Of a stretch of 35,803 bases of DNA, positions 3,104 to 35,803 are shown one piece after another. How positions within the stretch are numbered: position 1 is the first letter of the stretch; each line of letters starts with the position of its first letter. The translations under genes were made by a program, and so were the position numbers. The stretch is from Alphaproteobacteria bacterium (GTDB taxonomy: Bacteria > Pseudomonadota > Alphaproteobacteria > Puniceispirillales > UBA1172): positions 1 through 35,803 of the forward strand of contig JADHOM010000023.1 of NCBI GenBank assembly GCA_016778985.1, in the 5' to 3' direction. Below the pieces are notes generated by a model. It saw only the letters and a program-made list of their open reading frames with translations, had not been told where the DNA came from and made no database searches.

Positions 3104-3504
3104 TAGTCACCTGTTTTCTTGGCTGCAGGAATAGCGATCATGGCAACCTTTCGGCCTTCTGAAAGTAGTAAATTCCATGTCCGGCAAGCTGCTCCTGTCG
3201 GCAGAATCTCACCTTTTAAACCAATCTGCTGCAACTTTTTCCGAATATCCATAAACGGATGGCTCATCGTACCACCAATACCGATAACTAAGAGATGTGG
3301 GTTTTCGCTTAAATTAGAAAATAAATCTAAATCTGTGGGTGAGATGGTATCATTAGTCATCATATCGACTTGCGTGATGGCATAGCCAACTTCATAAGCA
3401 CCCAGAATAGCCATAGCACCATCAAAACGGACATGATCAATAACAAACCCATCCTTATCGTAATCGGTGATGATAGGCGTATCAGTTTTATGGTGTTGAG
3501 TCAT
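3103..3504 (-). CDS. Mth938/DUF498 family protein, NDUFAF3-like
   Basis: Small single-domain protein of the Mth938-like (DUF498) family. The core is seen in VIDHVRFDGAMAILG near the start, LLVIGIGGTMSHPF in the middle and ILPTGAACRTWNLLLSEGRKVA near the end. Eukaryotic relatives (NDUFAF3) assemble the membrane arm of complex I; the bacterial role is not established. I chose the ATG at 3504 (MTQHHKTD, 133 residues); the ATG at 3513 or the longer frame from 3534 is possible. All overlap the 3' end of secF, and no clear ribosome site helps decide. It is followed directly by the NDUFAF6-like gene, pairing two complex I assembly-type proteins. Confidence 0.85.
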   Translation of the reverse strand: MTQHHKTDTPIITDYDKDGFVIDHVRFDGAMAILGAYEVGYAITQVDMMTNDTISPTDLDLFSNLSENPHLLVIGIGGTMSHPFMDIRKKLQQIGLKGEILPTGAACRTWNLLLSEGRKVAMIAIPAAKKTGD

Positions 3505-34035: not shown

Positions 34036-35157
34036 ATGCCAGCTCCGATAAAAAAAACAGATACTTGGCATGGTCAATATGATGCTATTATTGATGTTCG
34101 TAGCCCGTCTGAATATGCCGATGATCACATCCCCGGCGCCATTAATCTGCCTGTCTTATCAGATGCAGAACGAGTTCAAGTAGGAAAGCTCTATAAGCAA
34201 CACTCGCCCTTTGAAGCAAGAAAAATTGGCGCCGCAATCATAAGCCGAAATATCGCAAGCCATTTAGATCATCAGTTAAACACTTATCCACCGAATTGGT
34301 CGCCTTTGCTGTATTGCTGGCGTGGTGGCCAGCGGTCAGGGGCAATGGCGCAAATCTTATCAGAAATTGGCTGGTCAGTAGATGTCTTGGAAGGCGGTTA
34401 TAAATCATATCGGCGACAAGTTCAGGCTGAGCTAATCGGCATTACTAAACAGCTTCACCCTGTCATGCTAGATGGGGCAACCGGTGTTGGCAAAACAATT
34501 ATCTTACATGCCTTAGAGGCAAATCATGTTCAGCATATCGACCTTGAGGGCTTGGCGGCGCATCGTGGGTCTGTGTTAGGTGCTATCCCGGGATTGGAGC
34601 AACCGTCACAACGCCTGTTTGAAAGCAGGCTTTATGCTGCTTTGCATCAGCTTGATCTGAATAAGCCAATTGTTTTTGAGGCTGAGAGTAGCAAAATCGG
34701 AAATATCCATATTCCTGACTGCCTGTGGAAAGCCATGTTGCCAGCCCCTAGCATCATCATAACAGCGGATATAACAGCGAGAGTTGATTATATTCTGCAA
34801 GACTATGATCACATTACAACTGACCCATCAGCCTTGAGTAAGCTGGTTAACGGTATGATTAGACGGCATGGGCATGACATAATGATGCTTTGGGCAAGTT
34901 TGATCGCTGAGAAAAACTGGGCTGAATTGGTCACGCATTTGATGAACACTCATTATGATCCAGCTTATCTGGCATCATCAAAGCGCCGGCAACGTCATAA
35001 ATTGGGCGAGATTGCGATGGAACGGATTGATGCTGATCATGCCACTGCCGCCGCCAACCAAATCGCTGATATGATCACTAGCCAAATTGTTACCCTGACC
35101 GCAGGCCTTACCGTACCCCCGACCAGTGACCTGATCGTAACCCCGATCGTAACCTGA
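34036..35157 (+). CDS. selU: SelU/MnmH, tRNA 2-selenouridine synthase
   Basis: Replaces sulfur with selenium in the 2-thiouridine of wobble position 34 of tRNA-Lys, -Glu and -Gln, using selenophosphate from SelD. The N-terminal rhodanese domain has IIDVRSPSEYADDHIPGAINLP and the catalytic Cys in LLYCWRGGQRSGAMAQIL (about residue 95). The C-terminal P-loop domain has DGATGVGKT and the family marker IDLEGLAAHRGSVLGAIPG. 373 residues is normal. The C-terminus ends in a tandem 12-base duplication immediately before the stop. It forms an operon with the SelD fusion. Confidence 0.95.
   Translation: MPAPIKKTDTWHGQYDAIIDVRSPSEYADDHIPGAINLPVLSDAERVQVGKLYKQHSPFEARKIGAAIISRNIASHLDHQLNTYPPNWSPLLYCWRGGQRSGAMAQILSEIGWSVDVLEGGYKSYRRQVQAELIGITKQLHPVMLDGATGVGKTIILHALEANHVQHIDLEGLAAHRGSVLGAIPGLEQPSQRLFESRLYAALHQLDLNKPIVFEAESSKIGNIHIPDCLWKAMLPAPSIIITADITARVDYILQDYDHITTDPSALSKLVNGMIRRHGHDIMMLWASLIAEKNWAELVTHLMNTHYDPAYLASSKRRQRHKLGEIAMERIDADHATAAANQIADMITSQIVTLTAGLTVPPTSDLIVTPIVT
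35133..35156 (+). repeat. Tandem 12-base repeat at the end of selU
   Basis: GATCGTAACCCC followed by GATCGTAACCTG, the last codons plus stop region. In frame. Confidence 0.85.
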
Positions 35158-35207
35158 CCCTCAATAAAGATAAAAATGATAAAAGCCGCAAAAACTAATC
35201 TTTTTTC

Positions 35208-35236
35208 TTGCATGGGCGAGCAAGTTTGATTATCAA
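35208..35236 (+). promoter_or_regulatory. Predicted promoter of tRNA-Asn
   Basis: -35 TTGCAT (35208-35213), 17-base spacer, -10 TATCAA (35231-35236), predicting a start about 9 bases before the tRNA. The geometry matches the tRNA-Cys promoter. It overlaps a direct repeat CAAGTTTGA (35221-35229 and 35234-35242). Confidence 0.4.
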
Positions 35237-35251
35237 GTTTGAACAATGTGA

Positions 35252-35326
35252 TCCCCAGTAGCTCAGCGGTAGAGCAAGCGACTGTTAATCGCTTGGCCGG
35301 CGGTTCGAATCCGTCCTGGGGAGCCA
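35252..35326 (+). tRNA. tRNA-Asn (GTT)
   Basis: Cloverleaf: acceptor TCCCCAG with CTGGGGA, D-arm GCTCAGCGGTAGAGC, anticodon stem AGCGA/TCGCT, loop CTGTTAA giving GTT, T-arm GGTTCGAATCC, discriminator G, and encoded CCA at 35324-35326. The anticodon arm contains AGCAAGCGACT and TAATCGCTTG, the same word repeated in the non-coding region downstream. Confidence 0.97.
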
Positions 35327-35376
35327 TTTTCTAGGGTTTGACTAGGGTTTAGGCTCTTTTTCTTAACTAAATTCGG

Positions 35377-35391
35377 TTAAACTTTGGTTAA
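35377..35391. promoter_or_regulatory. TTAA-N7-TTAA, CtrA-type binding site
   Basis: TTAA-ACTTTGG-TTAA is a perfect match to the full CtrA consensus known in alphaproteobacteria. A third TTAA lies at 35363-35366. Sequence match only; TTAA is common in AT-rich DNA. Confidence 0.35.
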
Positions 35392-35395
35392 TTTT

Positions 35396-35603
35396 AGCAA
35401 GCGATTATACCTAAATACCATCGCTTGCTTAGATTCTAAGTAATCGCTTGCTCAATGTAAAGAGCTTTAATTTCCCTTTATACTATTGAAACCCTTGCTC
35501 ACAGATGCTTTCTGATGATTTGAGCTTGAGTTGATAGATTGCTCATTTCAGCAAGCGATTTTTTAAAGCACAGCAAAACAGTCGATTATCATAGCAAGCG
35601 ACT
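35396..35603. repeat. Cluster of AGCAAGCGA repeats in both orientations
   Basis: Exact copies of the 9-base word: 35396-35404 (+), 35421-35429 (-), 35444-35452 (-), 35550-35558 (+), 35593-35601 (+). Longer agreement: AGCAAGCGATTA at 35396-35407 and inverted at 35441-35452; AGCAAGCGATT at 35550-35560; AGCAAGCGACT at 35593-35603, identical to 35273-35283 in the tRNA. The first two can pair as a 9-bp stem with a 16-base loop. A looser copy AGCAGCCGATTA is at 35621-35632. Confidence 0.85.
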
Positions 35604-35695
35604 AGTATTTAGCCCCTTAGAGCAGCCGATTAATGGTCTCTTTTGTGAGTAATTAACCCCTAGAAATAGACCACAAAAAGCGTTAGATTTTAGGT

Positions 35696-35803
35696 ATGAC
35701 AACTGCTTTATCAAAAATAGAAGAATATCGAAAGTTTCAAGAAGAACTTTTGTATCTGCAAAATGAATACAGAAAGGGTTTTGAAGATGCAGAACGTGCA
35801 GCT
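35696..35803 (+). CDS. Start of an unidentified gene, cut by the window edge
   Basis: ATG at 35696 opens a frame of 36 codons that runs to the last base with no stop. It begins MTTALSKIEEYRKFQEE and is rich in Glu, Lys, Tyr and Leu, likely helical and soluble. AGGT lies directly before the ATG, too close to be a normal ribosome site. I do not recognise the family. It could be the first gene of an accessory element. Confidence 0.5.
   Translation, partial: MTTALSKIEEYRKFQEELLYLQNEYRKGFEDAERAA

Follow-up and report, generated by a model that had tools for sequence, protein, structure and literature searches.

What does a cluster of short words that copy the anticodon arm of a tRNA gene signify when it lies 3' of that same gene? 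The question is raised by the end of the 35,803-nucleotide stretch of DNA analysed here (the window), which is the entire contig C35 of an alphaproteobacterial genome and ends at 35803. Judged by its kinship with relatives of the order, the host is presumably a marine SAR116-type bacterium. Because the window is the whole contig, a gene starting at 35696 is cut after 36 codons, and the integrase and the right end of the presumed element lie beyond view. The features of the locus are as follows.

35252..35326, + strand: tRNA-Asn(GTT), found by ARAGORN and Rfam; attachment gene, read as the attL copy restoring a full tRNA
35275..35295, + strand: presumed core, a dyad of half-site CAAGCGA, 7-bp loop CTGTTAA (presumed crossover) and half-site TCGCTTG
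35396..35407, + strand: array word 1, AGCAAGCGATTA
35418..35429, - strand: array word 2, AGCAAGCGATGG
35441..35452, - strand: array word 3, AGCAAGCGATTA
35550..35561, + strand: array word 4, AGCAAGCGATTT
35579..35588, + strand: degenerate word, CAGTCGATTA, with 2 mismatches
35593..35604, + strand: array word 5, AGCAAGCGACTA, which has AGCAAGCGACT in common with the tRNA
35623..35632, + strand: degenerate word, CAGCCGATTA, with 2 mismatches
35696..35803, + strand: presumed first gene of the element, cut by the contig end, 36 codons visible

The window contains six exact copies of AGCAAGCGA, one inside tRNA-Asn (35273+) and five 3' of it (35396+, 35421-, 35444-, 35550+, 35593+), the five falling within 206 bp and in both orientations; two further degenerate copies lie at 35579 and 35623. 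The 11-mer AGCAAGCGACT is common to the tRNA (35273) and the copy at 35593, and the anticodon arm itself reads as a dyad (CAAGCGA, 35275-35281; loop CTGTTAA, 35282-35288; TCGCTTG, 35289-35295). In 20,000 dinucleotide-Markov resamples of 35327-35803, AGCAAGCGA was expected 0.008 times and occurred at most once, and any 9-mer reached five or more copies in 21 of 3,000 resamples of the same region. Among 354 stretches, each of 477 bp, taken along the window, only four hold some 9-mer at least four times; all four overlap the cluster. These counts bear out the preliminary description of the locus, which had reported five exact copies in both orientations 3' of tRNA-Asn, an 11-base form identical to the tRNA, a dyad of the same word in the tRNA arm and a density above chance for a 9-mer. 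It had also called the cluster tandem, but the copies are interspersed in both orientations and not arranged head-to-tail.

A search for the word over the whole genome, as the preliminary description had suggested, revealed 39 copies of AGCAAGCGA in 2.10 Mb, 33 of them scattered off this contig with the nearest pair 1,675 bp apart. The word is neither clustered nor a frequent repeat elsewhere, and a dispersed genome repeat was ruled out. Rfam detected one tRNA and nothing else in 34800-35803, and the array region showed no terminator-like site and two promoter-like sites, no more than chance. No plasmid or phage record covered 80% of 35240-35803; the record matches to this region (20 of 75 and 20 of 844 records examined) fall in or just beside the tRNA. 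The gene at 35696, with 36 residues searchable, had no match beyond itself in 136 genomes of the order, matched no viral contig (one degenerate DNA pattern) and no Pfam family, and its likeness to the cargo gene of contig C38 and to the first gene of the viral contig L229 (both described below) was not significant. In the window genome, a search for an integrase adjoining the array, whose contig ends at 35803, and for a second copy of tRNA-Asn yielded neither; five other integrase-family genes are located on other contigs. Two imperfect inverted repeats, possibly due to chance, span the array (35328-35344/35650-35666, 82%; 35407-35426/35678-35697, 80%).

Comparison within the order showed how the cluster is distributed. 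tRNA-Asn was detected at E <= 1e-14 in 98 of the 136 genomes, and the loci fetched gave 80 distinct full-length sites; 76 of these had at least 200 bp downstream and were used, while the four with shorter downstream sequence were set aside, as was every partial tRNA copy. At least three CAAGCGA words within 450 bp downstream were present at 10 of the 76 sites, and one site (L119) has three words upstream. Altogether, 44 CAAGCGA words were counted in 33.5 kb downstream versus 7 in 32.6 kb upstream, and 60 permuted control words gave a downstream mean of 3.5, a highest total of 18 and a maximum of 5 at one site. All 10 array sites fall among the 41 tRNAs with the stem CAAGCGA, and at each of the 35 tRNAs whose stem differs, the word of that tRNA occurs at most once. 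A constant trait of the tRNA-Asn locus was thereby ruled out: an array next to tRNA-Asn in all relatives, which would have spoken against the reading in the preliminary description, is not what we found, as 66 of the 76 sites have at most one word downstream. The ten arrays represent about eight independent cases, since G022 and G100 are nearly identical (98.8-99.8%) and G093 and G094 have a common element; p-values for the chromosomal tRNA-Asn arrays are not independent either, because the words themselves served to select the arrays.

A partial tRNA-Asn copy lies downstream of four of the ten arrays (G107, G094, G093, G090), and three others (the window, G096, G102) reach a contig end within 1 kb. 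For the arrays of G022, G100 and G039, no second tRNA-Asn copy was detected in the genome at E <= 1e-14. Several contigs stop at or within a few bases of tRNA-Asn (G020 C66, G033 C5, G013 C39, G123 C95), as would be expected if the site varied within populations. In G007, G025 and G009 (L044, L053, L051), a frame that by eye resembles a tyrosine integrase of a different kind follows tRNA-Asn after about 80-100 bp, with no CAAGCGA array; integrases of several types may use tRNA-Asn. A further pair of words, CCAACTGATT and ATCAGTTGG or near variants, occurs about 40-150 bp after tRNA-Asn (L101, L102, L085, L111) and is recurrent in the arms of G093, G094, G125 and G130; it may serve as a site for another protein.

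Partial tRNA-Asn copies 0.9-2.8 kb downstream of the full gene in five genomes point to small integrated elements. Measured from anticodon to anticodon, they are 920 bp (G107), 930 bp (G094), 931 and 2788 bp in a row (G093), 2011 bp (G090) and 1258 bp (G125) long; the G125 element has one exact word only, near its left end. Some related att blocks start or stop near the anticodon loop (nt 29-75, 31-75, 31-77, 1-43) and others start further upstream (nt 12-22). The elements carry one to few genes, encoding a DUF3764 protein in G093 and G094, and an OsmC-like protein in the second G093 element. Those of G107 and G090 encode small proteins that belong to no Pfam family; one frame in G090 (243 aa) and one in G125 (254 aa) were judged by reading, outside the Pfam scan. 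An integrase is recognisable only in the second (2.8-kb) G093 element, adjoining its right end, and five of the six elements have none. An order-wide search with this integrase (E <= 1e-12) detected it in 5 of 136 genomes, which do not include G107, G094, G090 and G125. The right ends of the two G093 elements are alike (90% over 160 bp), and the first element keeps, by eye, just the start of the integrase gene.

Individual alignments of G093 with G094 showed 74.6% identity for the chromosome upstream (1081/1449), 98.4% for the element gene (310/315), 91.7% for the array (388/423) and 93.0% for the right end (119/128). Since the element is far more alike than the chromosome, these alignments argue that the integrase-less cassette, or its DNA by recombination, has spread between species. 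In G003, a genome of the window's genus, contig C36 carries tRNA-Asn with a 34-bp flank and contig C239 an element, a partial tRNA (29-75) and the same flank, which fits a sample containing the site both empty and occupied. A tRNA-Arg arm, degenerate in sequence, is also present on C239 (L108) at 74-118, some 160 bp away from the tRNA-Asn right end, which suggests stacked elements of two target types. In G092 (L105), a 5' tRNA-Asn fragment (nt 1-55, at 1223-1277) lies 2 kb upstream of the full gene (3212-3286), an order opposite to that in the other elements. Partial copies are stacked at tRNA-Asn, which is a hotspot.

An alignment headed by the G093 integrase led to two viral contigs, L229 (IMGVR_UViG_3300006793_007439) and L228. 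The attP of L229 consists of tRNA-Asn nt 29-75 beside the integrase and is surrounded by eight exact CAAGCGA words (832-, 859-, 891-, 927+, 982+, 1033+, 1055-, 1192+). The contig encodes a phage RNA polymerase, a gp2.5-like protein, an endonuclease and a primase/helicase. T7-like genes are also found in L228, where one word is visible; its array cannot be judged because the contig begins inside the core. Repeated 8-mers were counted, without bias towards any word, in up to 900 bp of sequence preceding 58 related integrases; only L229 had a word at least four times, and this was the array word. Scanning viral contigs with the close integrases of L229, L228 and G093 returned only L229 and L228, and a 16-mer scan gave 8 matches and no cluster, one of them with two words 360 bp apart. 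A scan for spaced CAAGCGATT pairs detected 36 contigs, with the tRNA-Asn core only in the L229 contig; of the 30 contigs with CAGCTGAT pairs none matched tRNA-Arg, and a few hold 8-9 such words for another reason. A PF00940 search for a T7-like RNA polymerase matched no genome, not even the controls, and so does not speak for an absence. Against named phages, the integrase matched 17 records with 25-32% identity, 10 of them pelagiphages. The study of Mizuno et al. (PMC3861242) ties the phage group G16 to SAR116 through attP-tRNA identity.

The layout of the words was compared between these loci by their offsets from the tRNA end: 72+, 95-, 118-, 226+ and 269+ in the window; 70-, 97+, 120-, 171-, 239+ and 271+ in G107; 64-, 114-, 165-, 233+ and 265+ in G022 and G100; 24-, 191+ and 223+ in G094; 24-, 192+ and 224+ in G093; 13-, 192+ and 225+ in G096; and 52+, 75-, 126-, 181-, 216+, 248+ and 275+ in phage L229. 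Spacings of 23, 32 and 51 bp recur, by simple count, in phage and chromosomal arrays; the array word is likewise common to the chromosomal arrays and L229. The window's last word pair is 43 bp apart, and G039, G090 and G102 are laid out differently. The 46 words chosen on CAAGCGA alone continue with T (36/46), T (26/46) and A (30/46), which extends the word to CAAGCGATTA and matches the tRNA 3' half-site GGCCAAGCGATTAACA. CAAGCGATTA is the reverse complement of this half-site including the loop-side TTA, and corresponds to the crossover-proximal half of the anticodon arm.

Sites at tRNA-Arg provide an independent test, because they were found by integrase and neighbour-gene homology and not by words. 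In the window genome, contig C28 starts with a related integrase that reads away from a full tRNA-Arg(TCT), and contig C38 holds a partial tRNA-Arg copy. CAGCTGA, the 5' stem word of tRNA-Arg(TCT), is present five times on the element side of C28 and three times on that of C38. When the 3' word was also counted, the numbers were 5 (C28) and 4 (C38, where one word is on the other side) versus shuffle means of 0.34 and 0.26, and were reached in 0 of 300 shuffles each. The corresponding empty site, with joined flanks in one piece, is contiguous in three of six same-genus genomes (G002, 88%; G005, 80%; G001, 79%); no one-piece match to the joined flanks was detected in G003, G004 and G006. A pooled one-mismatch test over all tRNA types was noisy, the own type being often outscored for tRNA-Arg and tRNA-Lys, and was therefore replaced by exact 7-mers of the specific tRNA.

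Relatives of the integrase at tRNA-Lys have 0 (G016), 1 (G095) and 2 (G099) words. Among 24 wider-family elements at other tRNAs, none has three or more words, the maximum being two, in a few of them (L253, L250, L272). These 24 elements (21 viral contigs and 3 genome loci with a clear tRNA block, no named phage) were taken from 58 integrase loci; those dropped had no clear tRNA block, were near-duplicates or had already been counted. As the tRNA-Lys relatives and the 24 elements show few or no words, the array is a trait of a subgroup. A tRNA-Lys-like 5' part that ends at the anticodon arm lies beside related integrases in G016 (L130, 6517-6559; a single-contig genome of the order, 2,753,527 bp), G095 (L132, 5158-5198) and G099 (L131, 3222-3265), with a coaD-like gene near this site in G016 and G095. 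At the tRNA-Lys-like gene, the predicted integration is in the other polarity.

Pfam analysis of the G093, G016 and C28 integrases identified a SAM-like (core-binding) and a Phage_integrase domain only, and no arm-binding domain in any of the three. When modelled with AlphaFold2 (35 sequences, mean pLDDT 87), the L229 integrase displayed residues 1-50 without secondary structure (pLDDT 42-55), followed by core-binding and then catalytic helices. Its best PDB matches were the Tn1549 integrase fragment 82-397, then XerA, XerH and an integron integrase. At the extreme N-terminus, a simple regular expression detected a QxxLF-like motif (QFDFF, QNDLF, QPSLF) in 6 of 35 integrases (L229, L246, L236, L241, L233, L266), and QHDLF in G016 and QFDLF in G099 and G095 were seen by eye. 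We take this motif to resemble a beta-clamp-binding motif; a literature search for such a motif in these integrases found nothing. From their domain content and the model, the integrases fall among the simple recombinases as classified in PMC8138268, which consist of a core-binding and a catalytic domain.

Taken together, the region 35327-35632 is probably the element-side arm of attL, with the words as putative accessory sites for a simple tyrosine integrase and copies of its core half-site. The comparison of loci establishes, on the level of sequence, the word, its recurring spacings, the att duplication and the links of the array with partial tRNA copies, an integrase and a phage attP; it likewise shows that the word changes with the target tRNA and that one integrase-less cassette spread horizontally. 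Binding of the words by the integrase itself, and the effect that this binding would have, we infer. The preliminary description had offered several readings, in the first of which the words were arm-type integrase sites that adjoin a tRNA attachment site and mark the edge of an element. The integrase sites, attachment site and element edge of this first reading find support in the comparison; classical arm-type sites do not, the words being copies of the core half-site.

A possible mechanism starts with a mobile element, either a temperate phage with T7-like genes or a related small cassette, that would integrate in the anticodon arm of tRNA-Asn. The words would act as accessory binding sites of the element's tyrosine integrase, with core specificity; as the enzyme would have just core-binding and catalytic domains, its arm sites would be copies of the core half-site CAAGCGATTA. 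Crossover would take place in the 7-bp anticodon loop CTGTTAA, and integrase protomers on the array could help to join attP and attB over the loop and set direction and specificity, a role in synapsis or direction comparable to that of DR1 and DR2 in attI1. Words near the first gene of the element might also regulate that gene. A broader proposal, which we advance tentatively and with less than even confidence, is that integrases without an arm-binding domain assemble their recombination complex on arrays whose units are core half-sites, copied from the anticodon arm of the target tRNA, that a change of target means rewriting the whole array, and that cassettes of less than 1 kb, reduced to an array and two att ends, are mobilised in trans by integrases of this family.

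An unlikely alternative is that the words form an array of operators for a regulator, either of the gene at 35696 or of the integrase, the tRNA likeness being secondary or reflecting integrase autoregulation. All five words precede the gene at 35696 by 95-300 bp, the words of C28 sit at the start of the integrase frame, and TCAGCTGA in the tRNA-Arg arrays is palindromic, which fits an operator too. Regulation of the KplE1 integrase gene reportedly takes place at its attachment site. The title of PMC2951348 describes that gene as tightly regulated. Against an operator, the word equals the half-site of the target tRNA at both tRNA-Asn and tRNA-Arg; moreover, in phage L229 seven of eight words are separated from the integrase by the core, and similar arrays stand upstream of quite different genes. 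The words could also be a decayed scar, att remnants that successive integrations at tRNA-Asn left behind and that no longer serve any function; the hotspot with its stacked partial copies and the arrays without integrase or second tRNA copy (G022, G039) would speak for such a scar. We regard this as quite improbable: the words are exact and have common spacings in several genera and a phage, and single crossovers would leave tRNA fragments rather than 10-bp words in both orientations. Clustered repeats and small elements without integrase would also suit a plasmid-like or satellite element that replicates from an iteron-type origin, but with words in both orientations that match a tRNA half-site and adjoin a phage core, and with no replication protein among the cargo proteins scanned, such an origin is very improbable. 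Chance, which gave five copies of some 9-mer in the 21 of 3,000 resamples mentioned above, can practically be dismissed for a word that is found in the neighbouring tRNA and again, at the same position, at nine further tRNA-Asn sites and in a phage.

We preferred the attL arm with core half-site copies and compared it with known systems. A literature search by titles and the opening of abstracts, with subscription papers outside its scope, found no description of such arrays among the papers listed, and the combination of anticodon loop, integrase, arm-type and core-type gave no result. Elements bordered by tRNA genes that carry cargo in marine plankton and use a tyrosine recombinase are known as tycheposons or tRNA-borne islands (PMC10872708). 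They measure 4-200 kb, whereas the six elements measured here are 0.9-2.8 kb long and five have no recognised integrase. The arrays draw attention to very small cassettes that lack an integrase and lie at tRNA genes of SAR116-type plankton, and at least one such cassette appears to have spread between species; searches for integrases or large islands alone would overlook such cassettes. They may also let the target tRNA be read from sequence. T7-like cyanophages (PMC8776855) and pelagiphages, as marine podophages that integrate in tRNA genes, are similar in their related integrases, their att blocks in tRNA genes and the T7-like genes of L229 and L228; in contrast to L229, 0 of the 24 wider-family elements, among which there is no named phage, have an array of anticodon words.

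Similarly, the tRNA/attB identity block, the integrase beside attP (L229, G093) and the clustered arm sites resemble the heterobivalent attP of the lambda type, from which the locus differs in that the accessory sites have the core half-site sequence and no arm-binding domain was detected. According to PMC8138268, the arm-binding domain is a regulatory acquisition that is essential for the mobility of mobile-element recombinases and is present in most phage and ICE integrases; 27 phages with simple tyrosine recombinases stand there against 410 with recombinases that have an arm-binding domain. The simple recombinases have the same domain make-up as the integrases analysed here, but the passages of that paper considered here make no mention of an arm array of core-like half-sites. 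In the integron site attI1 (PMC8946536), a recombinase without an arm-binding domain likewise has extra sites beside the crossover, the direct repeats DR1 and DR2, which favour attI1 x attC reactions; they are two repeats versus 5-8 words here, and attI1 has no tRNA target. If our reading is true, arm sites copied from the core and used without an arm-binding domain would be another route to the same end, closer to attI1 than to lambda, and how direction is set with one DNA specificity would become testable.
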